A stretch of 64,000 nt of DNA, taken from Pomacea canaliculata (taxonomy: Eukaryota > Mollusca > Gastropoda > Architaenioglossa > Ampullariidae). The notes beneath the pieces were generated by a model that worked only from the letters and a program-made list of their open reading frames with translations, had not been told where the DNA came from and made no database searches. The stretch is from positions 6,003,924 to 6,067,923 of the forward strand of contig NC_037592.1 in the NCBI RefSeq assembly GCF_003073045.1, given 5' to 3'. Position numbers and translations under genes: made by a program. Below are positions 167 through 58,022 of this stretch, piece by piece (position 1 is the stretch's first letter; every line of letters starts with the position of its first letter).

Positions 167-3100
167 ATGTTTTCTGCTGAGTCCCGCATCACGATGACAA
201 TGTTGACAGCTATCGTGGTCTTCACCTGCACCTGGCTGTTTGCAAGTAAGAAAAAGACCTCTGACTTATTTTCAATATTTATCAGAAACAAATACAAGAA
301 AATGAAGTAAAAATGACTTGTTTAAACTGAATCGCTTACAGAACACAATTTTATGTAAGTCTATTGTCGTATGTCAGCCATTATTTTTCTGTTTTTGTGT
401 TTTTCCCCCCGCGGTCTGCTGGCCTGTCTTTATGTGAAGGAGCACAGAAGAGGAAAAACTCATAAGAGCGACATCTTATCTTCTGTAATTCTATCTGTCT
501 CGCGATGCCCGAGGCCCTGACATGTTAATTTTAGAGTGTAACTTCTGAGTTGAGCGCAGGTGATGCTCACCTGTATTTTGTTTCAAACTGTCTTTTTATG
601 TTTGAACGTTTCCGCAAGGAAAATGGTGTTGGTTGAGTGAGCAGTAAAACCTTTTAGCCGCAAGTTGAGTGGTCCTGCTTTAATAAGGAGTAAAAGTATA
701 TGTTACCACAAGATGACTTGTCTCTTGGTTTTCCTCATCAACCTCTCCAATGGCTTAATTTTTGCAAGGCGGTTAGGTTCCTAGGGTTTGGTTACTGCGA
801 GGCGACTTTTGTCTTGCTCCTCCCCCCTCCCCTCCCGAATACTAGAGAAGTACATCCGTCTGCTTGTCCCGACTGGATTGCATCACATCTCCATTCGTCG
901 CTGCCTAGTTAACAAGCTTCAAAAGGATCAAAATAATACTGTTCGTATTCTCTTCCGAAGGTTAAAGGCGGATCACACTACACCACTGCAAGCTTCCCCA
1001 GCTGCCAGTCTATTGACTACAAGATCCCACAGTGTGCTGTTGCTGTCTTCACGGCCTTGTCCTGTCACACCTGTCTGTCTTGCCCTGTCACACCTGTCTG
1101 TCTTGTCCTGTCACACCTGTCTGTCTTGTCCTGTCACACCTGTTTGTCTTGTCCTGTCACACCTGTCTGTCTTGTCCTGTCACACCTGTTTGTCTTGTCC
1201 TGTCACACCTGTCTGAGTTACTTATGTCTTATCACCCGAGTCGGTCTCTCCAGTCTGCTTGTGTTAAACTCGGCAAACACTTTTTTTCTAAGCCCAACTG
1301 TCCAGAATTTTCTTCTACTTTTCCTCCAAACCGTGTCTTTTTTTGAAGCCTTCGAATAGTCCTCAAGTACTATATCGTTGAGAAGTATCTTGCTTGACCA
1401 GTCGTACAGCTCCGCCCTTTCCGCGTCTTCATCCGTGGAATGTTATCTTTCCGCCGAGGGTTATGTTTGGTTCGTCCCTGGTCTTTCGTGTGCAGCTCGT
1501 ATCTACAGCGCTTTGTTGTTGTTGTTGTTGTTGCAGTTGCTGTTGTTGTTGTTGTTGTAAAAGTTACAGTGTGATGTAAAATGGCGGCGTGTTTCAGATG
1601 CAGACTCCACAACGTGTCCTGAAGCACTCGCCTGTACTAGTAAAGGCTCACCAGGTCTTAATTGCAGGTATCTCAGATTCTTACTTTGAGTATCCACCCT
1701 CGCATTTACATCTTTTTCACAGGCAATCTTCACAATTAGTTTCGGTTTTCTGACATCGGATCATTTACATGAGCCACATTCGAGATTTGCAAATTAAACT
1801 TCCACGAAAAACAGAACCTCTTTGAAAATGTGCAAAGTGTTCAATAATTAAAGTTGTTTGAGATACTATGTTATCATCAATATCTACATTTACTATATTT
1901 TACCTCTATATCGCCTGTAGCATCTTTGGAATGTATGTAATACTTCACTCACTGCGATTTCTTGGCTGTTGGTGCGTGCGTGTGTGTGTGTGTGTTTGTG
2001 CGTGCGTTTATCGGCGAAAAAAAAAGTGGTTTCACTATTTATATATCTATATGCACACACATTGCTAGATCACTTCAATGTGTAATCTTTCAGTGACTAT
2101 GATACTTACTTCAACTGCTTGAGTACCCTTCCTGCAAGCTGCGGTGTGAACCAGAGCATGGCGATCATTAAGGCCTTGGTTCAGCCTGCGAAGGACTTTT
2201 GTAATGGTAATAAGGCTAACCCATTCACAGAGATTGTTGATGATGCATACAGAAACCTTTCCATAGAGTAACTTTCTGTATCTGCAGAAAAGAGTAAATG
2301 ATTTTTGAAGTAATTGACATTCATTAATTTATTAGTCTCTTTTAACACTACAAAGCTCGTTATAATTTCAATATTTAGATATTCCTGAACTTTCATTATG
2401 TGTTCTACAGGGCTCTTGCATAGAGTATTTTTGCTATGAAAATACCCAACAAATTTTGTTCACTCATTGATAGCCAGTCTGTTTTCAGACACTTTTGCAA
2501 ACGGTTTTTAGTTGTACACCTCTTGTCATCCCTCTGAGAGCAATGCCAGTGTTTGTGAGCGGCCACGATGGACTGCTAACTCGAATTATCGATGAATTCT
2601 AAAATGACTTCTAGAATGGACTGGCTGCCATCAAGTACAAAACTGCATCTGGCATAAGAAGTAACCACGCGTTGTCACCTTCCTAGTCTAGAAGAGGCCA
2701 CCTGTCTGAGATATTTCAGTCCTGCAAGACAGGTCGCTCGGTACGCTCTGTTAATACAGACCTTCTGTATTTGCCACATAGCAAACGAGAGTAAACGAGA
2801 CTCATACAGCAGCCGCTATTTCCTTTTTTGGGCTTTTTATCTCAAAAGCCTTCTCCTTGTCAGACATAAACAAGGTGTGATTGCGCTTTGCTTCACAAGG
2901 AGTCTACCACAGTCCACACCTGTGTAGGATGGTACACAAGCTTCCTTTTCTCGTTTTGTCTCTGTGAAAAATCCACTTGAAGCGAGTTTATGTCCCTCTT
3001 ATCTTACCACAACACAGCGATTGCGATAGACACTACGTCAATGGCGACAAAGACGACGACGACGACGACGACGACAATGATGATGGTGATGATGAAGGTT

Positions 3101-3187
3101 TATTTTAGAAGTATGACGCTTAAGTCATTTTAAGTAGATTAAGATACTTTTATGCATCAAATAGACTTGTAGTCTATGCCCGTAGTG

Positions 3188-3218
<31 letters not shown>

Positions 3219-3219
3219 C

Positions 3220-3256
<37 letters not shown>

Positions 3257-5618
3257 ACTCATGATTTTAGTCAGAGACTGACAGTTATTTGGTTGATTGA
3301 TTGGTCAGCCCTCACATCTCAGTTATCCAAAATCAACTCGTGTCTGAGCTATGGAGAATGCCTACAGAAAACTACGTGGGGCCAGAGTTTAAACGCATCT
3401 ACTCAGCCCATAGAAACTGTGATTGAACATGCATTCGGACTGCTCATCAACAACTTTTGCGGGTAAGAAACATTCATGGTTCGTAGCCGAGATATGTTAT
3501 ACCATCATGTGCTATGGCTAAGATGTTGGGCTTCTCATGGGTGAGCATTAATGTTTTATGACTAGAGTGGAATTATAATTAAACATTTATTAACTATACA
3601 TGCTCTGCAAGGCTCTGTCCATTTATTTGTACATTTGAGTTTGTTGTAGATATATTCATACTGTCGTTTAGTTCTATAAACATTTTGTCTCATTTACTGG
3701 CCTAATGAATAATGGAGAAAATCTAAATTTATTAATTTTAGTTTTGGACTTTTATTTAGGAAGTTAAATATAAAGTAGCTGTAAATTAGTTTTATTTGTT
3801 TATTTGCAACAAACTCTTGAGACCTCAATCTTGACAGTAGACTTGAAATGGAGAAAACATGGCGTGGAGATGACCGAATGCAGGAAAGTCTTTGTATCTC
3901 TTGCGAAGACCATATCATCATTAACCAAGGCACAAAATAACTTAACTTGAGGTGATTCTCAATACATATGTGCAAACTGAAATAATTTGTGCACATGAAA
4001 TGATCTTCAGATTCGAGGAAGAAATACAGAAGCATAAAAAGGAAAAAGTCAAAGAGTGGACAAGCCTGTTATTTAGTCTAGTTAGGTGCAATATATTCTT
4101 TTGTTGATTGGATACAGTTGGGTGACCTGAAGAGGCAGGAAGAGGTCAGCCAGGCAGACAATATTAGTGTACAATATTAAATGTAATATAAATTCGTTTA
4201 CCTTTAAAACCCATTAGCCAACGGTCGAGCTGGGACTATTCTAGGTAGGTGTTTATGTGTAGACGATTGTGACTTGTCTGTAGGCGTGTATCTCAACAAC
4301 GAAATTGTATATTTACCCAGATTTGGATAAAATAGTATCTTGCAATAAACTTAGAAATATTTCCACCTAACCAAATCTTTAAACAGATCCCTGCTATCAC
4401 AGAAAACCGAATCAGCCTAAGAGATGGCGGTAAGGTGTATCACGTGGATGCTATGCTAATGTATTTTGTATGTTAGCAGGAAAAAAAACCACAAAATAAC
4501 ACTGAAAACCGGTATGTGAAGTTGACATTAACCTTAATCTCGATTTCTGCAAATTTCATATTACATTTGAAAAAATATATAAGATAAATAACCATTTTAT
4601 TTTGCAACGATTAATCAGTATTGCTTGTGAAAGCTGATATTACATTATTATTATACTAGCAGATCAACTGTTTTGTTACCTGATATTGAGAAGACATTGC
4701 CACTTATTTTGCAAATGATTCTTAATATTAATATTATACATTACAGCAAAATTTATTTTTTAATTGATTACCGAATTTATACCTGATTTAATCCGCTGTT
4801 TCGTCATAATCTTGAATCCGAGATTATGTGATTTGAGAACTTTTGTTTGTTGCTCAGAGTTATGGAAGACATGGCTGCTTGTGTAGTAAATGAGATTCTA
4901 GCTGAACGATGTTCCTTCACTAACGACTTCTCGAATACCACGAAACATGCCAAGCATGATATTGACGATGTATGTAACGGAAAGGGTATGCAGACTTTTT
5001 CTTTTTGTTGTTTGTTTGTTTGTTTGTGTTTTTTTGGGGGGTTTCTTCTTTTGTAAATAAAAAAAAAAATCAAAGTAACGTCAGAAAATTGTTCAGTTGA
5101 TGTTCATATTACTATTCTTACGATACGTGAAGATAGAAATATGTCTTGTGATGTGTTGTGCACTCAAACCATAATAGTCAAGTAATCACAAAGAAAGAGG
5201 ACACAAAGTCATTATTGGATTCCGTGGCATCTTGTTGTCGCTTTCAAAATTTAATTAAAATTTTGTCTTTAGACATGGCTCTACATAAACATTTGTTTAT
5301 CTGTGACAGGAAAAGGCTAGCGAACCATACATTAGAGGAAATTTATTCTGTTAAATATACGCTGAAGAAATTTCATGGGGCAGGCGAGAAACATGTACAA
5401 CAGGGATACAAAGTATAGTAATTCACTAGAAGAAAGAATAAAGTTGTATGATACTTCTTGCTCGATCCCTTTAGTATGCATGTTTTCACCCATCAGTAAT
5501 TTTAGCGACCGTTTAGTAATATCTGGAAAACATTTTATTTTCAGGAACTGGAGGTAACCTCATGATACACGCAGCCCTCATTCTCATTGGTGCAGTCATC
5601 GCAAGTTTTATCAAATAA
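167..5618 (+). CDS. Copy A: two-module cysteine-rich secreted protein with GPI-like tail (six exons)
   Basis: Exons 167-245, 1598-1667, 2094-2206, 3309-3462, 4858-4985 and 5545-5618 join into one open frame of 205 codons plus TAA; all introns are GT/AG. Exon 1 gives a signal peptide (core LTAIVVFTCTWLFA). Exons 2-3 hold cysteines spaced C-x5-C-x9-C-x8-C-x7-C-x19-C. Exons 4-5 hold a second set ending C-x8-C-x9-C-x20-C. Exon 6 encodes a hydrophobic tail (LMIHAALILIGAVIASFIK) of the kind removed during GPI attachment. Glycosylation sequons NQS, NAS and NTT are visible. It is the most divergent intact copy, and its exon 2 ends with a Cys codon plus AG, as in copy G and as exon 4 does in all copies. 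An in-frame second ATG lies at 194. The promoter lies left of the window. I do not recognise the family; the gene model is strong, the function unknown. Confidence 0.75.
1061..1214 (+). repeat. 23-bp minisatellite, about 7 units
   Basis: Tandem units contain CACACCTGTCTGTCTTGTCC with one C/T variant. The single-copy equivalent is in the LINE fragment of copy C (near 30886), so the array is a local expansion of LINE sequence. Each unit carries a CACCTG E-box, probably by chance. Confidence 0.85.
1512..1559 (+). repeat. (TTG)n microsatellite
   Basis: A near-perfect TTG run with one interruption, at the end of the LINE fragment. It creates spurious poly-Leu, poly-Cys and poly-Asn frames. Confidence 0.9.
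3186..3255 (+). repeat. (TTG)n microsatellite in intron 3 of copy A
   Basis: An interrupted TTG run begins about 55 bases upstream of the exon 4 acceptor. It opens a poly-Val frame that runs into real exon 4, but that reading is not a gene start. Confidence 0.9.
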
Positions 5619-8760: not shown

Positions 8761-9071
8761 GCGAGCTCTGCGTTGCACAGGGACCGCACCGCTAGCTTGG
8801 CTCAGTTCGCTACGTGCTATGCAACACACCGCTGTTTAAGATATATTGGACCTTTCTCCACTGCAACCCCACGAAAACGGGGTCACACTCAGCTCACTTT
8901 TCGTGAAGAAACCAATCGAAGATGCTCACACCTGTGCGCAAACGTCAATCAATGCACTGCACCACTTCCGGTCGAGCACCACAGGTCTCTGCTGGTGAGG
9001 AGAGTCGATTGTCGATGTTTGCTGCCGAGTCCCTCATCACGATGACAATGTTGACAGCTATCGTGGTCTTC

Positions 9072-9312
9072 GCGATGCTCCGCAGATACTTGAAGCGGTC
9101 TGTTTCAAGGATTTTCTCTTCTTGAGGTCGGATTGGGAGTTCCTGCTTGTTGTTGATTCTCATCACTTCGATCTTCTTTCTGTTGACCTTTAAACCATTC
9201 TTCTCTGCTTCCTCTGATAGCTTCCTCAGTTTGGTTTGAGCATGTTGCTGCCGATTAGATTGGAGACTAATGTTGTCTGCAATATATTTAATAGTCGATG
9301 GTATATTCAATA
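9072..9312 (-). mobile_element. LINE reverse-transcriptase fragment cutting exon 1 of copy B
   Basis: The minus strand encodes a stretch including KLRKLSEEAEKNGLKVNRKK, then VMRINN and FKYLRSIA. This is the typical 'A-L-G-L-x-I-N-x-x-K-T-x-V-M' and 'F-K-Y-L-G-S' region just after the catalytic core of non-LTR reverse transcriptases. Both ends are truncated and a long (AAT)n run follows on the plus strand. Confidence 0.65.
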
Positions 9313-9315
9313 GTG

Positions 9316-9317
9316 TT

Positions 9318-9366
<49 letters not shown>

Positions 9367-9369
9367 CAA
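9316..9369 (+). repeat. (AAT)n microsatellite
   Basis: A near-perfect AAT run adjoining the LINE fragment, in intron 1 of copy B. Confidence 0.9.
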
Positions 9370-10699
9370 CTGCTGTTGTTATTGTAAAAGTAGCAGTATG
9401 AGGTCAAATAGTTGTTGTGTTTCAGATGCAAAGTCTACAATGTGTCCTGAAGCGTTCAACTGTTTAAAGATACACTCACCAGACGATTTGTGGTAGGCCA
9501 AATTCTTTCTTTGAGTCTTTACTCACTTATTTCCATCTTTTTCACAGGCTTTCACATAAACTTACATGTAATAGACACGTAAAGTTATATTATTAGTGTA
9601 TTTTATATATATCACTCTGTATTTGTACAAAACACACAATGTGTGTGATTATTTACAATAGCATATGAAACACAAGGGCAAAGTATGACATCTTAGGACC
9701 AGAATGTAAATGTCTATCAACACCGTACGAAGCATGCGTACATTTACAACATATCTCTCACGTTTATAAACAATACACAGCATGTGTGTGTGTGTGTCTG
9801 CAACACACAATGATTGTGATTAGGTAGACCACACGCCACGTAGGAGGTTGTGAACCATGTGATTACCTGCTATGCTATCTGCTTAGCCCATCAGAAGCTA
9901 CCTTCACCTGTCTGAGTAACCTGCGCAACACCTGCAAGGTGGACGAGAGTAAAGTGACCTTTATGGACTTGCAGCCTTATGTACAGAACGTGTGTCATGG
10001 TAAGGGAAGTCACTCAGATTGCTGTTGATGTTCTGGGAAAAATCTTTATTATATGGTTAAAATCCTCTATTACAAAAGAATCATTGCACTTTTTTTATCT
10101 ATTGGTTTCCATAAAGAAAAGAAAAAAAACCGTTAGAAAAGAAAACATGAGAGATTTTATTTCTGTAACACATACACAACTGCAGCATCTACCAAGCATA
10201 ATATACACTGTTAATATTTTATATCATTTTTAAAGATTCTGCAACATAAATGGATCGAAAAATCCGTGAAATGATACAGGTGAAGATCCCTGCAATAAAG
10301 AAGTAGTTGAAGGACAATGAAGGAACTGACTGATTGGTTAATTGATTGATTACCAGAATTCAAAGATCATCTTTCTGAAATTTCATCGTGTGCGACCTTT
10401 GATGCCTGCCGTGAGAATATCAAAATAAGTCAGATCATGGGAGCATCTCCAGAGGAACAGGAAAAGATGTCTGGACTCTTGGTGTCATCCGACACCTACT
10501 GTAGGTAAGACCTGGCCCCGTATGCATGAAAATCGACTGAGGATAACTCCAATTAGCTGCTAGTCCCGGAAAGCTAGTCGGGACCTACTCCCGATTACGG
10601 TCTCTCCGGATTCCGCATGCACGAAGCGCTAATCGCCCTCAACTAGCTCTCCGGGCCTGGCTGCGGGAAAACCCGGTGGCTGTCAGTGGAGGTGAAGGA

Positions 10700-12170
10700 G
10701 GCTAACTACTTCCTATCGTCACCTCGTTCTTTCCTTACATCGAACTGTCGTCTCTGAGGTCCCACCTACTTAATTAGCAAGTCATTGTCTAAATGTTAGG
10801 TATTTGACCCTGTTGTAGTGAGTCAAGTGACTCAGAGTGTGAGGCAGCGATCTCTCACCAAGGTGTTTGCGAGGTTACTAGCGGAGACAAAGAAAATAAA
10901 CAAAGGGGCTGGCGAAAGGATTTGTCAGAGAGTAGAGGGGTATGCGATGTCAATTATCAAAGGGAGTTGTATCTTGTGACTATATTACATGTGCAAAAGT
11001 TTAAAATGTTCAAGAAATAAACATATGGGCAAGGCTAACTTCAGCGTTCCGACATTGCTTGTAGAGATCTCCCTCAAGCATCGTGTTTTATTTGGTAATC
11101 ACAGTCACAGTCGCAGCCTAAAAAAAAATCATGAGGAGTCAACATGCAAAAGGTGAATACCTGCATGTGGGGTGGCACTAGAAGTGCCCAGAGTGCAAAG
11201 ACAAATGAAGAGCCTTGAGCCTTGAAATGTAAATATTGACTATATATAGCCTGTGTTCAGTCAAAGGTTGTGTTCGTTACATTATTACACTGATAACCCA
11301 GATGATGTATAATTTAAACAGTTGAAAGCAAGTGACTGTTTAGTATGCACACATCGATGGAGGAGTTCATTGCATTATAAAGTGTCTACACACATGCTAA
11401 ACACACAGAGTGGCATTTAGAGAGGGCAACATTGTAGTTATATATGAAAACTGCTTTATACATTGGCTGAACATGGTGATTCCAACACACAAAATAAAAT
11501 GTCATTGACCAGTGACAACATTAGTAATACCAGAGGTCAACTTTAAGTCTGCTAAGTTACAAACCAAGTGCTCAGTAACAAAAAAAGTGGTACATCGTAA
11601 AAGAATGATGGCTTGATAAAAAAATCCTAGTTTCCTACATCTATTCTAGGACCATACCCTTCACACTCACACACCTTTCACTTAGTATTCAGCAGTTGAA
11701 ATGATAAAGGAAAATGATTTTGTGTATATATTATTTATTGCTTCTGCACTTTTGGAATAGCATTAGGTTTGCCTGAATTTCAATAAAACAAGTTCTCCTG
11801 CAGCGACATGTTCAGATATTGAGTAAATGCCAATTTCCTGACAAGTTACTAATTGCAACAAAAACCCAAATTCTTCTGCTTGACACCAATGATCTTATAA
11901 CTAACATGGGCAATTTTGTTCAAGCTGTTCCTATCATGGGCAGACAAGCACATCATTTGTCATGTTTAACCAGTGCTTGTATTTGTGGGGATTTCATTTT
12001 ATAACTACTTTAAGAATTCTTGAAGAAATATTTTGTGTAATGTAGCACTACTCAGTTCATCCCTTACATCGATCTTCACCAATGCACTTAGTTTATGTTT
12101 TTCAGAGTGTCATCAGTTTGTGAAGCTTATGCTTCAAGAATCTTTATTTTTTTCACCCTTTCAAGGGTAT
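10700..12170. other. Left interior of the insertion, no gene recognised
   Basis: Unique-looking AT-rich sequence. The frames present are short, and I see no convincing domain, splice chain or RNA gene. Confidence 0.4.
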
Positions 12171-12179
12171 TGAGATATT

Positions 12180-13620
12180 CAAAATATACATACATTCACA
12201 TGCATTACTATATATCTTATATGCAATCTCCCTCACATACACACACACATTCACTGGTCAGTTTGTAACAGTTAATACATTAAAAGCTAATTTTTTGCCT
12301 CACTCACTTGTTCTTTCCTTCTTCTAGCCCTTTAATGCAAATCGCATCACTGTATGTGTAATCAAATAAATCAAAGTATATAAACACATGTAAACAAACA
12401 AAAAGTTTTGGAGGGGATGTTTCTGCCCCTCTATTTCATTCTTACCTAACACATATATATACACATACATTCTTACTTATATCTGCATACATATATAAAA
12501 TCCCCCCTTACACACATACTCGCTGATGCTTATATATACACAAGCCACATGCACACACACATATATATAAACTCCCCCCCCCCGACACACACACCTACTC
12601 ATATCAGTATATATATATAAAATCTCCCTCACACACGCACACACATCTGCTTATGCATACATGTGTAACCCCCACCCATCCACACACACAGCCTTATATC
12701 TGCTTTATACATATATGTAACCACCCCCCACGCACATACACTCATCTCTGCCTTTATATATATATACATGTAACCTACCTTACACACATACTCACATCTG
12801 CACATATATATTTATCTAATACCTCCTGACACATACACACACCTACTTACTCATATGTGCATATATATATTTAAAAATAATACTCTTACACACAGTCTCA
12901 TACCTGCTTATGTATATATACACAAACATACACATGCACACGTCTGCTTATATATATATCCCCGGAATCCCCCCATCTGCATATACATAAAATATCCCCC
13001 AAAACACTCCCCCTACTCACTTATATTTGCATATATAAATATAATTCCCCTCCACTCATGCACACTTGTATCTGCTTATGAATACAAATTTCACCCCCCA
13101 CCACCACCACACACAGCCTCATATCTGCTTATATGTATATACCACCAACACACACCTACTCACTCATATATGTATATATAATCCAACTACACACACACAC
13201 ACAAACAGCCTCATATTTGCTTATTTATAACTTCTCCCCCCTCCGGTACACACAGTCTTATATCTGCTTTTATATATATGTAATCCCCCCCACATATATC
13301 TGTATATATAAAATACCCCCTGACACACACACACCCTTACTCACTCATATTTGCATGTATAATATAAAATCCCCCTCCCTCATGCACACTTGTATCTTCT
13401 TATATACACATGTACTCCCACCACCACCCAACACACTCATATCCATATATATTTAATACCCCCCAACACACACATCTCTACTTATATATGTAAATCTCCC
13501 CACATACATATATTTGCTTATAGATATACTACCCACATCCACACACGCATATACTCATATTTACTTATGTATATATATGTAAACCTCCCACCTCCACACA
13601 CATATACATATTCTCTTATT
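12180..13620 (+). repeat. CA/TA/C-rich irregular tandem array
   Basis: Repeated blocks of roughly 60-75 bases alternate (CA)n, runs of C, TATATATA and ctcatatctgcttatatata-like words. The copies differ by indels, so several spurious His/Thr/Tyr-rich frames arise. This is a degenerate minisatellite inside the insertion. Confidence 0.8.
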
Positions 13621-13985
13621 TCTTCTAGTTTACCGTCCTAGGTAAACAAACTTAGCTCATCTAATAAGGGTCTGTTTATTGTTGATGTCAGTAAAGAATG
13701 GAACTTTTAGGCATTGAGATTGTGAGTAAATTAAAGTGATAAATTATTTCTACATTGGTCAGCAAATTTTTGTAGAGTTGAATAGATAATGAAATTACAA
13801 AGTATTTAGAGCCTTTCATTTCTAGGGTTTCATTTTGTCTACATGTTTCTTGTTACATGTTTTGTACTGTAGGTTTGTTTTGCAATACTTCACGTGTGGG
13901 TGCATTCAACAAAACATTTACAAGCGCCTTACAATTTAAATTCAAGTATAATATTATGTCTAAATTTACTTTATTTTCCATTGGA

Positions 13986-14231
13986 CAGTGGCGTAGGAAC
14001 CAGGGGGGCAGCGGGGGCAGCCACCCCCCACAAGGAAAATACAGGGGGGCAGGAATATCCTTTTGCCCCCCAAATATTTGAGACGTAATTCCTCACAAAG
14101 AGCAAAGAACAGAAGAAAGGTAGGGGAACGTAGAGAGGAGACGGTCATCACCGTGCGAGTGCGAACGCCGTTCACTGTCAGCAGGGAGTTTGCCCCCCCC
14201 CCCCAACGCCGAACATCTTCCTACGCCACTG
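13986..14231. mobile_element. hAT-like MITE, 246 bp
   Basis: Starts CAGTGGCGTAGGAA and ends TTCCTACGCCACTG, a 14-bp inverted repeat of the CAGTG type common in hAT elements. The interior is rich in runs of G and C and has no transposase. The flanking octamers (ccattgga, cattactg) match only partly, so the target duplication is decayed. Confidence 0.75.
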
Positions 14232-14289
14232 CATTACTGATCATTACCCATAATTTGTCACCAAGAGGCTAGCCGGGTGGGAGTACGGA

Positions 14290-14415
14290 AAAGAAGGTAA
14301 AAAAAAAATAAAAAAAAAAGGTGTGTTGGGGACGGGATCTGATCTCACGGCTACCGACAACTTATAACTTCAAAGAAAGTCCTTTCCTTGTTGTCCTAAC
14401 GATGGCGCCGTCAAA
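14290..14415 (-). mobile_element. tRNA-derived SINE relic
   Basis: On the minus strand GGCGCCATCGTTAGGAC resembles a tRNA 5' half and GATCAGATCCCG resembles a B box, followed by a T-rich tail. It has decayed well beyond a functional tRNA. Confidence 0.35.
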
Positions 14416-14479
14416 TATACTCGGTTTAGAAAAAATCCCGAGACTAAGCTAAACATTTGTGTTTGTCTCGCCTACTGGT

Positions 14480-16540
14480 TGCTAAAGAAAGGAAAGGGTG
14501 CTGTACTTTGAAACATTGTCTGACGGGAAAACAGTTCCAGTCTTGACCCTGGCAGTTCCCCTTCTTCTCAGATTTTATCTCATCGAATGTCTCGCTTCAA
14601 CAAAGGCTTCATGACCAGCCGGCCAATTTCCGGTAAGTGGATTATGAAACTGCTATCTTAGGAAATAACGATGATGATACATTAAGTGGGCTAACTGTGA
14701 GTGGTTTACTGGCTCTAGGCTCCTAGAAGAGCTTTTTCTTGTCACTGGGCCAAGCGAACGTGGAACTGAGAGCTGCTATGAAGTAGTAACCACAAGGCTT
14801 TATATCAGTTTCATAAGGCTTGATGTAATTTATATCAGCTGCAGGTAATTCTTTTCCGAACTGAAAAGGACAAAATGAATGTCTCTGCCCTGTGACTTAT
14901 ATGTCCTGCATGTCTCCTTTACAAACATTTGACTGCAAAGGTTCGACAGCCACAAACAAATCGCAAACGTCTCACTTTCGAAGAGGAGAACCATCTGTGA
15001 TATCATTTGTTTTAAATCGGAGAGGGAATCAACACCACGATGCCCAAACAACAAGGAAAGTGGAGAAGAGAAGACCGAAGAAGAGGAAAGATACAGGGAG
15101 GAGGATACATGGAAAGTGTGGACAGCGCTGGTGTGATTAACTCCCCATGGGGCTTTGAGGAACTGTGAAAAATGGACAGAACTGGTGGCGAGGTCACCGT
15201 TGGTCAACGAGCATGAAAGCTGGGGGTCACATGACAGTGATTTGTCACTGGCCACCTTACAAACTCAGCTTCATCTCCATGTTCCGGTGAGATGGTCGAG
15301 GAACTCGGGAAAATGTGCTTCTGGGGAAGAGATGGAGATGAGAAATGATGTTACAAAACCAGATGCGTAGGTAGAAATAGTAGGTTGCCATGAGAACGCT
15401 GCGGTAGGTAGAAGTGGTATTCGAATATTAACGTCTCTGTGGTAGGCCTGTAAGTCCAGATGTAACTGTGCTTTCAACATGATCATAGACTTACAAAATG
15501 GTGGAAGCAGCACACACACACACACACAAACCCACTTATCTTTTTAGTCTTCTTTGTCCTCCTAGTGCCGCAACCATACCACCCCAGCGGATCCGGTTCT
15601 GGGCCGAGGATCGATCTCCTGGTCTGTCTCCGAACCCTGCGTTTCATCTGTGGGTTTAAGTCCAGAACTTGTCTCGTTAAACTCGGTGTCAAATTGCAAT
15701 AAAATCAAATTGTCAACCGTACACTGCAGTCTATGCAAAAACTTATTAAATACATTTTTTACTGAAACAAGGATATCGGCCGGCAGCTCTTCCTTGCGAT
15801 GTAAGTGTAGAAGCAGGACTGAAGTATCGTTGGAAGTCAGAGAAACATTGCAGTGTACTGCTGACGTCAAGCAATGTCTGTAAGACACAATAACAAACAC
15901 GTTAATGCTTTGTACAAAGCCAGGATAGTGTGTTTTCACGAGCAAACCTTCGATGTCGCAGTTGAAGATGTGAAATATTTTCACGGGTGAGTCCCGTGCT
16001 GTCCTGGTGACCGTTAGCACGGACACCTCGTGTCGCGGCCTAGTGTCGCGTAGTCACTGGGTCAGTGAAACTTATTCTCTCCCTTGTCTTGCTTGTGTCT
16101 TGCCGTCCACACAAAGTCCTCGACATTATGGGATAGCAATTGTCATGAACTGTGGAGGGCCGGGCCATCTTGTCACTTATTTCTTGTTGGTGTTCTTTGT
16201 AGGGTACTGTTGTCCGTTTTCGATGTCCTCCATTGACTGGGCAGGCAACTCTGACCACGCGTACAATGATGTCTGGAGGGGAGAGGATCGGGTAGGTTGT
16301 TGCCGTCTGTCACTCCGATCTTGTTCACTCCATTGAGTATGACGTGTGTGTTCCTGGCAGTTGGAGGTACCTAGGGAGACAGTAGCAGAGTGTTTGTGGT
16401 CCGTCGTGCACTAGTCATCTTCGTTAACAGCAGCCTCGTTGTCGATGACGTCACCGGTTCTGAGGCGTGTGCGTCTCGGTTCAGCGGATATGTTCATTGT
16501 TGTAAACGGCGAACTTGACTTCTTCACGAACTTTAGACAC
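14480..16540. other. Interior of the insertion with hypothetical ORFs
   Basis: This GC-richer stretch lies between the SINE relic and the satellite. It holds several overlapping frames on both strands; the best is listed at 15562-16026. I cannot build a splice chain and find no transposase. Confidence 0.3.
15562..16026 (-). CDS. Hypothetical ORF inside the insertion
   Basis: A 154-codon minus-strand frame with a mixed, protein-like composition, four cysteines, and NVS and NDTS sequons. A good internal acceptor (tgtcttacag) lies within it, so the real exon may begin about a third of the way in. No family is recognised; a CUB-like reading (C-x-I-E-G then YPGF) was considered but is weak. It could be cargo of the insertion, an older gene fragment or chance. 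Confidence 0.25.
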   Translation of the reverse strand: MSVLTVTRTARDSPVKIFHIFNCDIEGLLVKTHYPGFVQSINVFVIVSYRHCLTSAVHCNVSLTSNDTSVLLLHLHRKEELPADILVSVKNVFNKFLHRLQCTVDNLILLQFDTEFNETSSGLKPTDETQGSETDQEIDPRPRTGSAGVVWLRH

Positions 16541-16542
16541 GT

Positions 16543-16630
16543 TAGTTGGCAACGGCGGTATAGCCTGGTGGCTACCGACAAGGTCTGAAGACTGAAAGGT
16601 GGTGTGTTCAAATCCGACAGTGACAAATCA
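16543..16630 (+). mobile_element. tRNA-like SINE head at the start of the satellite
   Basis: TATAGCCTGGTGGCTACCG resembles an A box, and GTGTGTTCAAATCCGACAG contains a good B box (GTTCAAATC). The body runs directly into the GTGA tract through aatcaagtgagtg. This looks like a tRNA-derived SINE whose short tail repeat has expanded into the neighbouring satellite. Confidence 0.55.
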
Positions 16631-25037: not shown

Positions 25038-25039
25038 AA

Positions 25040-26515: not shown

Positions 26516-26557
26516 ACGTGTTCGGCCAAGGATTGCAAGAACTGTAAACATCCTCAT
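26516..26557 (-). pseudogene. Inverted first-exon relic (copy-G type)
   Basis: The minus strand reads MRMFTVLAILGRTRLLG, closely matching MLTALVILGWTCLLG of copy G, and the 100 bases before it also match the copy G leader (actccatcaaacaacca). The donor is mutated from GTAAG to TTAAG. It sits where exon 6 of copy B should be, so an inversion or inverted duplication probably removed the tail. Confidence 0.6.
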
Positions 26558-45287: not shown

Positions 45288-47662
45288 ATGACAATGTTGA
45301 CAGCTATCGTGGTCTTCACCTGCACCTGGCTGTTTGCAAGTAAGAAAGACCTTTGACTTTTTGACTTATGTCGGCTAAAACAGGTAAATACACCACACAG
45401 GGCAGGTTCTACTAACATGGCGCACTTACAGAGTGGTGGTGGGGAGAATGGCCTGCTGTTTTTTTTTAATGAGTACCTAAGTCCAAAGAAGAATAGCCGC
45501 AGTTGAAGTCAATGACAACAACACTGACACTACCAGGATGTAGATTTGATGATCCATAGTTTTGTACTTACGGTTGTGACTCACGGAATATTTTCAAGTA
45601 AATATTTAACTTTCTTATTTAATAATGAAATTTATTTTTATTGGTTCAATGAGTGTATTACGATAATTTTTTTAATCAAATTGTTATATTTGTTTGTTTA
45701 TTTGGACTTATTTCTATTATCTAAAAGTGCGTCTGTTTGCATACAGTGTGAACAGATAGCTTGTAGTTATTCTCTATTGACAGAATATTTAAAATTCGTT
45801 ATTAAGAGATAGTGCGCTATATACTTCTTTAGTTTTCTTCTGTATAGTTTTACATTATAGGCTATAAACTTCTCTAGTTTTCAACAAATTCTAGCGCTAG
45901 CTTTTGGAATGTGTTTGGGCATCACCTGGACACCATGATTTACTTTGTATTGTTAACTCCAAGAGTCTCTCTCCTACCGTCCGCCCACCTGTCAGATGAA
46001 ACTCTCCCATGAAAACATTCGGAAGGTGGCACTGATATGAGGGTGGTGTAGATGGTGGAAGCTGTTACAGCTTGAAGTTTAGACCAAAGAGCAAAATACG
46101 ACTAGAGGAAGGTGCTACAGATTTCTTGTCTACATCAGTGTTTAAGGGACGTGTAGCCATTAATAAAGCCTGTTAGCCGAGTGTTTGAAATCCCCAACTT
46201 TAAGTGGAGGTCTGATTTGGTAGCCATTCAGGTGTCAATGTGTACACCATGCCTGTCTGGAAATGAACAAAAAAAAAAAAAACATTTTCTCGACAAAAAT
46301 AATTTTTATAAAGCAAAGACGGAGAGGAAACTTTGTAAAATTCTTAGTTTCAATAAGTCAATCTTTGATACTTCTGGATTCTGACACTTCTGGTCGTAAT
46401 GAGTTCTTGTAGAAAACTACTTTTCTACTATTTTTAGCTGTAAACAGCGGTTTTACTTGTTGGTTCTTCTATAAGATTAGAAAGAGAAAAGAGAACGATT
46501 GAAAGCTTTTGCCCAGCTGCTAGTTGAAAAGGGTAGCGATAAATCTGTCACAGTAGGATCAGGTTATCAGGTCAGGACAAAGGAGCTTCAGTAAATTCCT
46601 TTCTTACTGTAACGGTCCAAAGGCTTCGGAGCGGTGACACTTGATAGTCTTCCGTAAAATGAGAAAGATACACAAGAGAAAGATTGAAAGGACTGAAGTC
46701 GGGTAGACTGAACAGTAAATACATGTCCATGGTCCTACATCCACGGTACCTGTATACATTTATTAATACGATCTATCTCTTTAATTTATTCATATTTCAT
46801 TATTACTGTTATTACCCTTTAGCTTGCATGGATGCAGATGGTTGCGTTAGTTGCGTTGTAAAGCTGAAAAAAAACATTTCATGGGGCAAGAGGATCTGTT
46901 ACAGTCTGCCTCTAGTCTTTATGAGGTCACAGTCACGGTTGGTGAGGTCTGGAGGCGGGAAGACAATTGAAAAAAAAAAACCTGAGAGGAAAAGCTTGTG
47001 TAGAAGGAAGAATGTTACACCTGGTGCACATTAAGTCAGGTTAAAATGTTCATTTGTCACCAAAAAAAATTCTCCTTTGCTGATCGACTGGCATTGTTTC
47101 TGGACTTTTCAAAAGACTGCTAAATGTTTTGACTGCACGTGAGCTCACGATAATAATGAATAGTAATATGTAAACCTATGTTTATTGTTTGAATTTTTAG
47201 TGACGAAAATGGAGTTAAGCCTACACATATAATTAGTATTTTTGTTCATAAATCGCTGACTTTTGAGGGAAGAAGTGGGGGGGGGACTTGTTCTTCGCAA
47301 ACCTCTCTGACATATTGAAGTCGGTCTCTCGAGTCTACTTGTGTTACCCTCCTCTCTGTGGCCTGGATCAGACGGGAGAAATTCAGAACACTTCTGTCTT
47401 TCTCAGGCCCAGCTGTCTATAAATTTTTTCAACTTTCTCTCCGAACTGTGTCTACTCTTGAAGCCTTCAAATCGGGCCTCAAGACCTTTCTCGTTGGGAA
47501 GTATCCTGCTTGACTAGTAGTACACTTCTGCTCTTTCCTCTGTTTTGCTATGTGCAAGTTTATGTTACCTTTCCGTTGAGGCTTACGATTTCGTTGGTTC
47601 TTCTATGATCTTTCGTGTGGAGAACATTGAACTCGTGACCATATGGAAAAAAGTCCTTTGCG

Positions 47663-47698
<36 letters not shown>

Positions 47699-50368
47699 GC
47701 TGTTGCTGTTGTTGTTGTTGTTGCAAAAATGATAGTGTGAGATTTTTTTTTTCAGATGCAGACCCCAAACCGTGTCCTCAAGCGATTGACTGTATGACGG
47801 CAGATCGTAATTGGTATCACAGATTCCTTCTTTGAGTTTTTATCCTCTTATTTCAATCCTTTTTACGGGCAATATTCAGGATTAAATTAGTCTTTATGCA
47901 ATATGATAGTTTTATGCTTGTATGTGTGCGCATACACTAGTACAGTAGATTATCTTGGAATCACAGTAGTTAATCGTTCTTAGATAGTTCTTATTAAAAA
48001 ATTTGAAGTGCAATTGTTTTCAATTTATTTTAAAATTCAACTTAGGTTAATTTTATTGAAATTTAATTTACAAGTTTAACAGTATAGCAATCGGTAGTTG
48101 GTAACATTATAACTACAAAGATAACTAATGATAACAGCTGACATCTCTGATGGGCATAGGGGAAGCGGCTTCTAAAGGAAAATCTGGTTTTAAAGTTTTA
48201 TTGTAAGAAAAGTATAAGTACATTTACAACATAATTTATACGTTTATCTAGACTACGCAGTGTGTATGTGTTTGTGTATCTGCAACAGTCCATGGGATTA
48301 GGTAGAGCACACGTCACATAGAAGGTTGTGTATAATGAGATTACCTTGTGTAAAATATTTTTAGTCCATCAAACGCTACCTTCACCTGTCTGAGCAACCT
48401 GCGTGGAACTTGCGATGTGGACGAGAGCAAAGTGACCTTTAGCGAACTGCTGCCCTATTCACAGAGAATGTGTAATGGTAAGGGCAGTCACACTGATTGT
48501 GCTTTAAATACGTTATTACAAAAAGTCATTGCACTGTTTTCCTCTAGTGGTTTCCACATTGAAAAAAATTGACGTAGAAGAGATAATGTTCCAGACGTAA
48601 CATGTTAAACACATGCACAACTGCAACATCTACCAAGCATAATAGACACTGTCAATCATTTTTTTAATCATTTTTTACAAGGTAAATGGATCGAAAAATA
48701 CTCGAAATGATACAGGTGAACATTCCTGCAATTAAAAAAAACAGTTAAAGGATAATGGTGGAACTGATTGATTAATAATTTATTGATTGATTGTCAGCTT
48801 TTATGGATCATCTTTCAGAGATTTTCCCGTGTGAAACCTTGGGTGCTTGCAATGAGGATATAAAACTAACTCAAATCATGGGCGCGTCTCCAGAGGAACA
48901 GAGAGCGATGTCTGGACTCTTGGTGTCATCCGACACCTTCTGTAGGTAAGACCTGACGGCAGCATCGAGTATTCAATAAACATTTATTACTTCAAAATAG
49001 CTCAATCGCTTCTTTTCATGTGACGATAAAATGTTGATGGATGAATGTCTTCTACTACAGTGTCACAGAGAATGTCACACTGTGTCAGTTTGTGTCACAG
49101 TTAAAAACTTTCACGAGGAATCTCACTATCTGATTTTTTTTCCCCACAAAACTTTGATGCGTAACTTGTGTACAAAATTAATATTATACGAGCACATGTA
49201 GATATATACACTGTAAATTAAAAAAGAAAAGTATCAGAGATGATCACTAGCAGATGATCTGTGTATATCAACTCCTTCAGGCTAAATCTTTACAATGAAA
49301 TGGGGTAGGCTCGTGCTACCACACTGGCGGCCATTTGTTACATGTGTCTGACAAGGAGGCAGCCATGATGGCTATTAATAAACTGTTCTTACGCTCCCTC
49401 TTTATGTTTTCTTTTCTATTTTACTTTTAAAAAGAAAAAAGTCCTACAGGTATTACTGAAATGAATTGATTAGTGCTACTTATTTGGTGTGAAGTATAAG
49501 ATGGAAGAAATATAAAGGAAAATAGAACTTTTGATTTTCCTCAGCTTTTTTCATGATTTGGCCGCTTGTGTCATAAACGAGAAGGAAGCTGGACAATGTA
49601 TATTTTCCACAAACTTTTTTAACTACATAATGGATGCAAAACAGAATCTGACCGAGCTGTGTGGAAGCACTGGTATGTATTTCTCTATTCTTTCTTCGAT
49701 CGCCTTTTCTTTTTAAATTCTGTCATGTGAAGCAGCACACACTCACTATAACTACTACATATCGGTACCCCTGAGGTAGCGGAGCCTGATCTGACTTGTT
49801 GAAAACTATAAACACTCTACCTTTCGTGTCACCTGAATTTAGTGAGTTTCCGTCTAACCCGCAAATTTAATAAGTTTTGGATACTCTAATAAAATCCGGA
49901 CTCTCTCTCTCTCTACACACACACACACTTGTTATTGGAAAAAATATAACCAGCCACCAACAAACTTAGTGCAAAACACTCTCTGTGAACTCAGTTCCTT
50001 ATTTATGATGATGGATAAAGATAGGTTTGATTATAGATAGAAATGATGAAGCATCGAGGAGGATTGCTGAAAATGAAGACATGGATTGGGATGATTAAAA
50101 ATGAATGAAGGAAAGATGGTTGATTTATTTTTTCTTTATTTATGTCAATTTGCATGAGACTAACTCATGTTTATTATTTTATTTTCAAGTAAAACTCTCA
50201 GACACGATGTTAAAATAGCTTTGTCACATCTCAGTATATTCTATATGTCCTTGTCACTGATCTTGTAAACTGTGTATACCTGCTTCCTTTTCAGGGTCTG
50301 TAGCTGGTCTCGTGGTGAACACAGCTCTTACTCTGATTGGTGCTGCCATCGCAAGTTTTGCAAAATAA
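45288..50368 (+). CDS. Copy E: two-module cysteine-rich secreted protein with GPI-like tail
   Basis: Exons 45288-45339, 47756-47813, 48365-48477, 48819-48945, 49545-49672 and 50295-50368 give 183 codons plus TAA. The ATG used by other copies (here 45262) is out of frame after loss of one base and makes a nine-codon uORF whose TGA overlaps the ATG at 45288. I therefore start at 45288, which still gives the whole hydrophobic signal core. Exon 4 has two in-frame acceptors: 48819, or 48798 for seven more residues. The loop in exon 2 is MTADRN. An NAT sequon starts exon 3. The tail is GLVVNTALTLIGAAIASFAK. All cysteines are kept, and the stop lies in AATAAA. Confidence 0.75.
47300..47727 (+). mobile_element. 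CR1/L2-like LINE 3' fragment with (TTG)n tail, intron 1 of copy E
   Basis: The clearest of the shared fragments: FKSGLKTFLVGKY in frame near 47470-47510, a common reverse-transcriptase C-terminus, then a run of TTG/TGC ending about 30 bp before exon 2. Confidence 0.6.
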
Positions 50369-53035: not shown

Positions 53036-53658
53036 ATGTTTTCTGCTGAGTCCCGCATCTCGATGACAATGTTGACAGCTATCGCGGTCTTCACCTGCAC
53101 CTGGCTGTTTGCAAGTAAGCAAGACCTTTGACTTTTTGACTTATGTCTGCTAAAACAGGTAGATACACCACTTAGGGCGGCTCAGAGAGGTGGTGTGGAG
53201 AATGGCCTGCTGTTTTGTTTTGTTTTTTAAATAAGGAGCATTAGGAAGAATATCAGTTTGATAGAATGACATTTGGAGGACATATTTTCTCTGCTAGTTG
53301 GTTGACTTCACTACACTATAGCTTTTTAGTACATGTATTAAAGGAAAACCCAATCATTCCAGGGCGCATTTGCAGTGACCAGATATCTAACGGGAAAGTA
53401 GAGAGTGGTTGATGGGTGGGGTGCTGAGGAGGGGCTGCGATGGTAGATGGGGAACGGACTGGTGGAGCATTAGTAGAGGGGGGCGCAAAAATGGCCTCTG
53501 TTTATATATATATATGAATAGTGTCAGGGGAAAATATCATTTTCATTGAAAGACACCTTCCCTCTACCCGTAAATTCACTTCACCACTTGCTTTTCTCAG
53601 TTTGTCTTTCAGTAAAGCTCCCTTATCCACTTGACTGTATCAATTCACGGTCTAATTG
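53036..53658 (+). pseudogene. Copy F: truncated family member (exon 1 plus chimeric exon 2)
   Basis: Exon 1 (53036-53114) is intact with a GTAAGC donor. A deletion then joins intron 1 to the middle of exon 2. A cryptic acceptor (tttgtctttcag) makes a chimeric exon 2 at 53613-53658 that stays in frame (KLPYPLDCINSRSN) but has lost the first cysteine. Exons 3-6 are absent: homology to copy D intron 2 fades near 54200. Exon 1 is phase-compatible with exon 2 of copy G (55713), so its promoter could feed G. Splicing the chimeric exon 2 to exon 3 of G would create a TGA. Confidence 0.65.
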
Positions 53659-54570
53659 GTATCTCAGATTGTTTCTTCGAGATTTCATCCCTTTTTTTAG
53701 TCTTCAAGACTAAATAAGTGATTGAAACACACAAGTCTTTATGCAATATTAGTTTTATACTTGTATGTGTGAGCATATACTTGTACAGTAGATTATATTG
53801 GAATGACAGTGAGTAGTGGTTCTTAGCTAGTTCTTAGTATGTATGCACTGTAGTCCTCAAACACCTGTTCTCTCCCTTACGTAGACATGCTCAACGATTC
53901 ATAATGCAGCCTTCGGTAAATAAGTGAAGTGCATTTGTTTTCATTTTTTTTTAATTCAGCCTAGGTTAATTTTGAGAGAGGCCCGCTAGAAGAAAACTGT
54001 CCCACCCCTGATATAATTAGTTCATCAATAACATAAAATGTAAATGTTTATTAACAAAGTACAAAGTAAAAGTACATTTACAACATAATTTATACCTGTA
54101 TCTAGACTACACAGTGTGTATGTGTATGCAACACACTGACCATGTGATTCGGTAGAGCACACGCCACATAGAAGGTAGTGTATAATGAGATTATTTTGTA
54201 TCAATTTTGTATCAATTTGTTACAACATTACGGATATGAGTTGTCACTGCATTAACAAATGTTATCATGAAAAAACATTTGAGGGAAAAATATAGATGTG
54301 GTATTCTCTCGCATACACACACATATCTAGAGCTAATTTCAAAAAGGAGAGTTTGCGTAAGTAATAACTAGCTAAACAACAGCATGCTCGTGCAAAATTT
54401 AACACGGTGGGAAAGGAAAGTCACTTTTAGCTTGCTATCCCGCTTCGTATGCCACCCGACCTTCACGGCACTTTCACCCCACCACCCCACCCTCACCCTC
54501 ACTCCCACCGACGGAGACGCGAGTGGAGGGGTAACAGGCATCGGTAGGGGGCATGAGATTTGTAAAGGAA

Positions 54571-54578
54571 TATAAAAG
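54571..54578 (+). promoter_or_regulatory. TATA box of copy G
   Basis: TATAAAAG about 220 bp before the preferred start. Its surroundings are unlike the promoters of C-F, so G has a promoter of its own type. Confidence 0.5.
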
Positions 54579-54792
54579 CATTGAGTGGCAGGTAATATCT
54601 ACCCGACGACAACAAATTTGAAGCTCCACACAGACAGTGGAGTCGAATTGCGTGATGGACCACTGGGAGAAGCGGATGTATGTGTGCGAAGTACCTGGTG
54701 TACAGACCCACGGGTCGTGCTGCTCACATTTCTACTGTCCTCACTCCACCAAACAACCACCAGGTGTCTGCCTGAAAGTTTTGCTTCTAAGC

Positions 54793-57700
54793 ATGCCTAC
54801 AGTAGTGTCTAACATCAGGAGGATGTTGACAGCTCTTGTAATCCTCGGCTGGACATGTTTGCTGGGAAGTAAGAAATAATTTTGTGTTGCTTTGTCATCT
54901 GCAAAACGTCCGGCGTATCTGTAAACATCAGTTTATATCTTTTAAAATTCCAGTGACATATAAGTTTTACATTTTCAAAGATATTTTATCATTCTGTGTG
55001 TTTTATTTTTCAGGAAACTGGTTTTAAACTGACTGGTATTTAAAAGGTCACATTTTACAATAAGAAACATTCATGGGTTTTTGCAAAATACTTTTTTAAG
55101 CCTCTTTTCCTTTGTTTTTGTTTCTGTCCTTTTTTAACCTTCTTTCCTATATTCTAGGTATCTTTCTTTGCCTTTTTACAATGTACTTATCCTTGCCCTG
55201 CATACCTAAAACCCAGCTACTGTACTGTTAAATGACACCACCCTGAAATCTCCCTAACCCCTCGCCGTCCTACTGTCTATTGAAGCACAGAAAATAGCTC
55301 ATAAACATCTAGCCCTATAGGCAAATATCCCTGTGGGCCCCTAGCCCTATGTATGCGGCCTTAGAGGCCCACCTCACTGTGTGACACCAGTTTCGGTGCC
55401 GAGGGAGCACAGTTAAATTAAGCATAGATGTTTCATCAAAAACATCTTTTCGATTATTAACCAGGAACATGATGAAGCAAGGGAATGAAACAGAAACATT
55501 CTGAAATGTTCCCATTCTCAACTTAGCAGAGCGCATCTCATATAAAAAGATAACAATTAATAATTTAACAAAAACAAAAAGGCAGTAAAGTATTTTTAAC
55601 AACATAAGGAAGTATATTTTAACAGTACTGAAGAGTAAATTATTAAAATGAGCGAAAAAATAATGAGGTTTTATTTTAAAAAGTAAGGCGATATAATTTT
55701 GACTTGTTTCAGATGCAAGCATCACTCCGTGTCCTCAGGCACTTGACTGTATGATGACAATCTCACAAAGTTCTTCGTGCAGGTAGTCAATATTCCTTAT
55801 TTCAACTCCTTCCTCCCCTCAGATTTAAGTCTTGCAATTTTCCATTCTCTAAAAATTAAGTGAGTGATTTGTCAGCATAATGCTTACATGCTTATCTGCA
55901 TGTAGTTTAATGTTTTCTTTAACTTGTGAAGACAACTGAAATGCTGAAGCACAATCCTTACCATTCATGGTGGTTCCTGTAAGTTCTTGATAAACGTACT
56001 CAACACTGTTGTAAAGCTCACGTATGGAAATTATCAGTATAGGTATATACTGTAGGTCTAACTGCAACTCATTGCATGTGTGTGTATCTAAAATACACAA
56101 CATATTTGTAGAGCACTATTTATAGGGAAATGGTGTAAGATAAATTTATATACAGTCTGTCTGTCTGCTCAGAGACACCGAGACTGTCTTCGCGTGTCTG
56201 AGCAGCTTGCGTGGGACTTGTAGTGTGAACGAGAGCAAGGTGGCCTTTAAGGACGTGGTCCAACCTACAAAGGACATGTGTAACGGTAAGGGATTCAATC
56301 AGCCGATAGGATGCTGGGAATGCTGGAGAACAACAAATGTACATGTACTATTATATATATTAAGGCCTAATCATGAAAGGAATAAAATGTAGCACTACTG
56401 AAAAGAATTTATAGCTTCTAGAAAAACATTAATAGATTGTAAAATCGTAAATGACAAAGACAAGCATACCATTAATAAAATCGAACAAACTATGGATGTC
56501 ATTGATTGATTAAGTTGAATGATTGACCGAACGATTTTCAGCAATCGCTAATCATCCTTCTGATGTCGGGTCATGCTCGACCTTCTGGCCATGCCGTGAG
56601 AAAACTACATTCGCTCAGGTTATGGAAGCTTCTCCATGGCAACAGAGAGAGATGTCCGGTCACTTGGTATCATCTTACACCTTTTGTCGGTAAGACATGA
56701 TGACGTTAAACATGTTTGAATTTTTCCTTGGCTTTCATTATATATATATATAAAATAGCGAACATCATCAAATGTTTACAAAAAACAAATGTAAACAAAA
56801 AGCCGCAGTTGGGAGATCTCGCACCCACGCTCTCCGCGGCAAATCACAAGCCACCCCGACCTATGGTTTGCAGTTCCCTTTTTATCTGAATGAAAAAATA
56901 GCAGGTTTGTATCAGTGGTAATCTTGTTGCCAACAATTTTGATTTGTATGACTTTATGGGGAAGTTAACATTATGACAAATTATTAAACCAATTTGACGA
57001 TATCTTTTCATGAATTTCTGCGATTTGGGGAACTCTCTATGACTTGAAATTATGTAGTAAAAAGAACCCATTACAGTGTTATATAAAAAAACGTAATACC
57101 AGTCATACTTAAATAATAATGCGTTTGAGGAGGAAATGCAGTCAAAAGGACAACCCTTATTTTTCCTCAGGTATGCAGAAGACATGGCCGCCTGTTTTGT
57201 CAGCGAGAACGAGGCTGGACGATGCACATTTTCCACAGCGTTTTTGAACTACATGATGAATACTAAACACAGACTGTCCAAACTGTGTGAAGGGAATTGT
57301 GCGTATTTTTCATTTCTTTCTATGGCCCTTCTTTATTATTCAATAATAATAATAATTATTATTCATCTAGAGCCTATGTTAAGCAGCCACGACAATTACT
57401 ATAAAGTATAAAGCACTTGGTAATAAGAGTGAACTTGTGTAACGACATTCTCTGTCAAAAAAGAAAAGCTCGGTGTAGTCCACATGAAGATCAAATAACA
57501 GTCTAACGAAGAAGCAAAAATTCTCAGGAAGAATGAAGTAAGGTCAAGCCAGGTGTAAATCAGAAGAATACGTGGAAGATAAAAGTCATCTCCATCCAGA
57601 TAGCGAAAGGGAGATCACTCCAATCGACGTCAGACTCTAGATCTACATAATCCTTATCAAATCATTATCTAATCAAAATAATCGTCTGTCGTTTCATCAA

Positions 57701-58022
57701 AGCATCCAAGTAAAGAAGATGAACCATTACATCATGTAAACAAACACTTTGGTCGAACTGATTGCAGGCTGGTTATAAAGATGGATGAATTAATGAGAAG
57801 GATGTGTAATGATGGATCGGGAAGGATGAATTATGGACGATAAAAACAATAAATGAAGGAAAGATTGTCGATCTCTTGTTGTTTCAATGGTAATTTAAAT
57901 AAAACAAAAAGTTTGTTTAATATTTTATTTTTGTCATAAGTACCTTTTTTCAGACATGTAACACCTTGAAATACTTTTGTCATATCTTAGAATTTTCAAC
58001 GACGATTCATTCTTTTTCAGGA
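54793..58022 (+). CDS. Copy G: two-module cysteine-rich secreted protein without GPI tail
   Basis: Exons 54793-54868, 55713-55782, 56173-56285, 56542-56689, 57171-57298 and the first two bases of exon 6 (58021-58022) give 178 codons. The last base of exon 5 is T and exon 6 starts GA, so the join itself makes a TGA stop. The product has a signal (MLTALVILGWTCLLG) and both six-Cys modules (loop MMTISQSSS, NES sequon) but no anchor. Exon 6 still shows decayed tail sequence and AATAAA (58079). If intron 5 is retained, the frame continues into a hydrophobic stretch encoded by an (ATT)n run and stops at 57411. The frame is also open upstream to an ATG at 54655; I prefer 54793 because it aligns with the other copies. 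Confidence 0.65.

Follow-up and report, generated by a model that had tools for sequence, protein, structure and literature searches.

A tandem cluster of seven genes for cysteine-rich, probably anchored proteins in the snail Pomacea canaliculata

The 64-kb stretch of DNA analysed here (the window) comes from the golden apple snail Pomacea canaliculata (Ampullariidae) and contains six related genes for small cysteine-rich proteins, and one more copy lies upstream of it, which gives a cluster of seven in the order Z, A, BC, D, E, F, G. The cysteines of the encoded proteins are fixed at 12 positions while the rest of the chain changes roughly at the pace of non-coding DNA, which suggests a role in recognition at the cell surface. 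The explanation preferred here, to which somewhat less than an even chance is given, is that the cluster represents a snail-restricted, tandemly duplicated family of anchored binding proteins, ~180–205 residues in length, with fast-changing loops. A compact seven-gene cluster in an invasive snail, with a fixed cysteine frame and loops that appear to evolve at about the neutral rate or faster, would offer a small natural library for studying recognition if the loops bind a partner from a microbe, a parasite or a gamete. As long as no function can be assigned to it, interest in the family by itself is moderate.

Homologous exons were located from gene A by tblastn in the window and in 80 kb on each side, and gene models were fixed by splice sites and frame. 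A preliminary description of this DNA had counted seven copies, A to G, within the window; two of these, B and C, proved to be parts of a single gene (BC), leaving six there, and the seventh gene of the cluster is the upstream copy, Z. Most copies are already annotated by NCBI as uncharacterized proteins with matching exons. Database proteins identical to the models were found for A (P0003), D (P0001), G (P0006) and Z (P0002), while the E model differs from P0004 only in the first exon and the F model is seven residues apart from P0005, in which the exon 4 acceptor lies 21 bases downstream. These independent annotations lend outside support to the predicted splicing of the exons. The family had been called unrecognised, which holds in so far as no Pfam domain was found and the proteins are labelled uncharacterized (one UniRef label aside), but not for the genes themselves, which were already annotated. 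No mention of four LOC names or of C0Q70_04739 was found in the literature searched. Nothing recognisable as the array family appeared, among the matches listed, in the Pomacea literature on glycosylphosphatidylinositol (GPI) anchoring, tandem genes, positive selection, immunity or orphan genes.

Whole-genome searches covered 440,159,624 bases in 24 contigs, with the window at positions 6003924–6067923 of contig C3. A 131-base block containing exon 1 was detected in seven places, all of them in this cluster and one per gene (seven of seven candidates scored); genome-wide counts of this block are lower bounds. With the proteins of A, D and G as queries, no further convincing place was found in the genome outside the cluster, and weak matches on contigs C5 (E 4.42), C2 (E 0.41) and C9 (E 3.89) were discarded. 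Exon-1-like sequence occurring at window +80546 and at +105057 was also rejected; both places are part of a downstream repeat that appears, by eye, to be ankyrin-like in another frame. Searches of ~5.8 billion proteins, using a six-member alignment or A alone, returned the same seven Pomacea proteins alone, up to E=10, although this type of search needs shared exact words and distant relatives may escape it. A snail GAS1 query against the same database found many gastropods, with other molluscs at 48–71 % identity. With one cluster in the genome and Pomacea alone among the proteins searched, the array family appears to be restricted to snails.

The coding exons of the six copies other than BC are 52–154 bases in length, with GT donors, AG acceptors and intron phases of 1,2,1,2,1. 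The protein of an intact copy begins with a signal peptide (exon 1), continues with two six-cysteine modules (exons 2 and 3, then exons 4 and 5) and ends in a hydrophobic tail (exon 6). All 12 cysteine columns are invariant across the seven genes, compared with 13 of the 126 other ungapped columns, and none of the seven mature chains has a cysteine beyond these 12. The preliminary description had proposed this six-exon plan, with every exon under 160 bases and with conserved splice sites, phases and cysteines; exon lengths, splice sites and phases were borne out in the copies other than BC and the cysteines in all seven genes, the plan itself being confirmed in the intact copies by both the models and the NCBI annotation. 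Cysteines within the modules are spaced 5,6–9,7–8,7,19. A two-exon module was probably duplicated to give the two present modules, since their intron phases match and their cysteine spacing is similar except in one loop.

A GPI-type signature, consisting of an N-terminal signal peptide and a terminal hydrophobic tail after small residues, was present in five of the seven genes (Z, A, D, E and F), and the tails of all five had a mean Kyte–Doolittle hydropathy of 1.80–2.59 over 17 residues. These five copies are open with the tail and are probably GPI-anchored. The earlier tally of copy states stood for the four open copies with a tail inside the window (A, D, E and F) and for the one open without it (G); only one copy (BC) is broken, where two had been counted. 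There is good support for a spliced, secreted, disulfide-rich and probably GPI-anchored family shaped by gene birth and death.

Comparisons of the copies with each other indicated rapid change in the coding sequence. Between Z and A, exons 2–5 have accumulated 43 non-synonymous and 5 synonymous changes (non-synonymous rate, dN, 0.135; synonymous rate, dS, 0.052), an excess of non-synonymous change (one-sided Fisher test, P=0.024) that is the most extreme of 21 pairs and is uncorrected. Coding sequence was more divergent than introns 3–5 in D–E (0.212 vs 0.155, P=0.004) and in E–F (0.190 vs 0.141, P=0.010), and exon 4 was faster than its flanking introns in D–E, D–F and E–F (P=0.006–0.010, pairs not independent). 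An apparent excess in exon 4 of Z–A (P=0.001) proved spurious, having arisen because nucleotides had been aligned over two indels. Home-made codon site models, applied to all 158 codons of six genes, gave an overall dN/dS of 0.81 under M0, and favoured M2a over M1a (twice the log-likelihood difference 9.98, P=0.0068, a result that held on three trees; P=0.016 with BC added) and M8 over M8a (P=0.0016). We take these comparisons to mean that residues other than the cysteines are replaced at about the neutral rate or faster, and positive selection is plausible but not proven.

A number of results weigh against interpreting the array as anchored binding proteins with fast loops. The coding difference between Z and A was not significantly greater than that of introns 2–5 (0.107 vs 0.101, P=0.36), nor was that between D and F greater than that of introns 3–5 (0.183 vs 0.157, P=0.11), and exon 4 of Z–A compared with introns gave P=0.16 in a codon alignment. 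When intron 2, which aligns poorly, was included, the pooled introns reached 0.232 for D–E, 0.177 for D–F and 0.156 for E–F, so that the coding sequence of D–E is then not faster than its introns. For the 100 codons more than three from gaps, M2a had P=0.45 and M8 over M8a P=0.17, with P=1.0 when BC was included; the positive codon-test results depend on columns near gaps. Comparison of module 1 with module 2 by hhalign was not significant, and the homology of the modules therefore rests on introns and spacing. The GPI anchor was judged from sequence, hydropathy and composition. Both structure models were of middling confidence, with a mean predicted local distance difference test score of 66.8 for the AlphaFold2 model, which is mostly helical, and of 57.3 for the second model.

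The M0 estimate, the near equality of exon and intron rates in Z–A, the position of D–E below its pooled introns when intron 2 is counted and the disappearance of the site-model signal away from gaps are also consistent with a relaxed, decaying family, in which change would be near-neutral, tails would be lost, as they have been in BC and G, and diversifying selection would play no part. Such decay is possible, if on the unlikely side, as all 12 cysteines have been retained in the seven copies, including BC, the frames are open in six of the seven, the coding change of D–E and E–F exceeds that of introns 3–5, and the Z–A pair shows its non-synonymous excess, with the reservation given above for the best of 21 uncorrected pairs.

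If the proteins are anchored binding proteins, the hydrophobic tail would be replaced by a GPI anchor and the cysteines of each module would pair into three disulfides that keep small helical bundles together. Binding would take place through the fast-changing loops, chiefly the one of 30 residues that separates the second and third cysteines of module 2 and is encoded by exon 4, while the tail-less copies (G and possibly BC) would be soluble forms. The proteins would most likely bind a fast-changing partner at the cell surface, such as a ligand from a microbe, parasite, symbiont or gamete. The preliminary description had raised a role in recognition or defence, and we likewise infer that the family may have one.

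Proteins of the GAS1/GDNF-receptor alpha family are GPI-anchored and have a helical fold, and the array could in principle encode divergent co-receptors of this type, whose GPI-anchored helical domains would hand a ligand to a signalling partner. The UniRef label on protein D is ‘GDNF/GAS1 domain-containing’, both families have cysteine-rich repeat modules and the order of the first cysteine spacings is loosely similar (snail GAS1 domain 2 begins 6,5,10,8,3,18). However, no match to PF02351 was found by Pfam in six array proteins or four single modules, while two snail GAS1 controls passed the cut-off, and hhalign of either module with either snail GAS1 domain gave a probability of 0.1–0.3 %, compared with 93.8 % for a control of GAS1 domain 1 against domain 2. 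The modules of the seven genes have six cysteines each, whereas the domains of three snail GAS1 proteins have ten, and the sole GDNF-domain match returned for the genome is on contig C13, outside the array. The array family is without relatives found outside Pomacea, in contrast to GAS1, which is present in other molluscs. Membership of the GAS1/GDNF-receptor family was rejected on the Pfam results, hhalign with its control, the cysteine count and the genome search, and is regarded as very improbable. The GFR-alpha fold was not among the best 50 of 106 and the best 50 of 270 structure matches obtained with the AlphaFold2 model, an absence that excludes nothing.

A relationship to T20D4.11-like/DUF19 proteins had been suggested for the array, and these are small, cysteine-rich proteins of a secreted type, similar to the array proteins in style. 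No Pfam match to them was obtained with the six proteins or four separate modules, and membership of this or another known small cysteine-rich family is scarcely credible. Pfam was queried up to E=10, with HMMER filters dropping most matches above ~0.1; matches far below the cut-offs, to DUF1397 (E 0.011, one of four modules), CPW_WPC, Pox_A8, UDPG_MGDP_dh and others, were discarded. Foldseek and VIA gave nothing above noise and no PDB relationship was found for the array proteins. A viral library contained no match at E≤0.001, and NCBIfam, a prokaryote-oriented library, yielded chance-level matches only.

The closest proteins in style appear to be the taxon-restricted, secreted, cysteine-rich BCR proteins of aphids (PMC3574423), one example of a kind of family that is already known. 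BCR proteins are reported to be bacteriocyte-specific and without other Pfam domains, and to have a conserved signal peptide followed by a highly diverged cysteine-rich part; four members share a near-identical six-cysteine spacing and three of these four genes are clustered within 20 kb (PMC3574423). The snail genes form a longer tandem array, and their proteins differ in having two modules, 12 cysteines in all and a probable anchor; the likeness is one of style.

The 5′ ends and the bodies of the genes have different affinities. Introns and exons of the body group Z with A and BC with D, E and F, leaving G alone, whereas the 300 bases upstream group Z, A and BC together and D, E, F and G together. 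A TATA-like box is located 130–203 bases before the first ATG in D, E, F and G, and no such box was detected over 330 bases in Z, A and BC. By the beginning of intron 1, D groups with F and E with G (91 % identity). Since 5′ ends and bodies group differently, they have been re-paired by exchange in or near intron 1. Between A and G, compared across the units, the only match over at least 50 bases at E≤1e-6 extends from −164 to +103 around the ATG (88 %), and a separate search also matched part of exon 3 at 77 %. In gene A, this 5′ block (3..270, + strand) comprises approximately the 5′ untranslated region, exon 1 and the first 25 bases of intron 1, with 88 % identity to D, F and G. The block close to exon 1 is kept alike in all units, through conversion, selection or both.

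RefSeq gene LOC112559908 includes isoforms X1, which is the gene A protein, and X5, in which an A-type exon 1 precedes exons 2–6 of E. The start of X5 (MFSAESRIT...AIVVF) is encoded by A exon 1 alone, whereas E exon 1 reads MLAAECRIT...AIVAF. This raises the possibility, considered unlikely, that a single transcription unit spans A to E, with A exon 1 spliced to alternative five-exon bodies and one promoter giving rise to several surface proteins. Six of the seven exon 1 donors (that is, not truncated BC) and all seven exon 2 acceptors are in phase 1, so that any such pair would be in frame, and the block kept between units that otherwise match little begins ~164 bases ahead of the ATG and stops shortly after entering intron 1. 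However, the join requires a 39-kb intron, the database models of D, G and Z carry their own exon 1, that of F agrees with the F exon 1, and a separate TATA-like box is present in each of D, E, F and G. The exon 1 copies are 88–99 % alike, and the join could be mimicked by short reads, by template switching or by conversion of the exon 1 allele in the snails that were sequenced; because of this likeness, misplaced reads or allele conversion offer a good alternative explanation. A shared first exon, if real, would represent an unusual mechanism for switching surface proteins in an animal. An extension of this idea, in which the cluster is one switchable unit with the 5′ untranslated region and signal-peptide exon of A spliced across tens of kilobases to other bodies, is decidedly doubtful. 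In such a unit a single promoter would display alternative anchored or secreted binding proteins, and exchange inside intron 1 would re-pair first exons with bodies over evolutionary time.

All genes in the window are on the + strand. Gene A (167..5618) corresponds to isoform X1 of LOC112559908 and encodes 205 residues with a signal peptide, two six-cysteine modules and a hydrophobic tail in exons 167–245, 1598–1667, 2094–2206, 3309–3462, 4858–4985 and 5545–5618. Its intron 1 contains seven copies of a 23-base repeat (1056–1215). Gene D (28920..34281; GenBank C0Q70_04739) encodes 196 residues in exons 28920–28998, 31337–31394, 32274–32386, 32719–32857, 33436–33563 and 34208–34281, with its TATA-like box at 28717. 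Gene E (37085..42537), the body of which is found in isoform X5 of LOC112559908, encodes 194 residues in exons 37085–37163, 39393–39450, 40498–40610, 40953–41094, 41653–41780 and 42473–42537.

Gene F (45288..50368; LOC112559909) has exons 45288–45339, 47756–47813, 48365–48477, 48819–48945 (RefSeq acceptor; alternative at 48798), 49545–49672 and 50295–50368, and starts at the second ATG. In isoform X2 of F (P0007), exon 5 is skipped and the frame is shifted. Behind the first ATG of both F and Z a single base has been deleted; the frame is open from the second ATG, nine codons on, which is the start used by RefSeq. In F (45262–45291) and Z (~−8865), the first ATG now opens a short upstream frame whose TGA stop overlaps the second start (ATGA). 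Gene G (53036..58022; LOC112559910) would encode a secreted form without the tail, in exons 53036–53114, 55713–55782, 56173–56285, 56542–56689 and 57171–57298. Its stop codon is formed across the exon 5/6 junction and completed at 58021–58022, the last base being 58022; P0006 ends at the same junction, and a remnant of the tail extends to 58084.

Gene BC (9015..26547) consists of a truncated exon 1 (9015–9071), exons 2–5 (9426–9492, 9887–9999, 10357–10504 and 26167–26294) and a degenerate exon 6 (~26513–26547). It is broken at both ends, exon 1 being cut after 57 bases without a donor, while exons 2–5 are open, retain GT and AG and encode all 12 cysteines. The former copy B (exons 1–4, 9015–10504) and copy C (exon 5 and the degenerate exon 6) are regarded as halves of one gene because an insertion splits intron 4 between them and because D, E and F, which are uninterrupted at the same place in intron 4, show the empty site. 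The insertion (10515..25630, no strand assigned) is 15,116 bases in length, with 14-base terminal inverted repeats (GCCCCGTATGCATG) and a 3-base CTG target duplication. An AGTG tetranucleotide array of 8.3 kb (16631–24972) is present inside the insertion, and two open reading frames within it had no Pfam match. Adjoining the truncated exon 1 of BC is a fragment on the − strand (8948–9403) with weak similarity to reverse transcriptase (E 0.0002, below the Pfam cut-off).

Downstream of the array, a reading frame with ankyrin repeats and a SOCS box occupies 61617–63071 (+). A stretch from window +79500 to ~+144000 is repeated several times at 69–93 % identity with frames that appear ankyrin-like by eye, forming a second array that lies beside the first.
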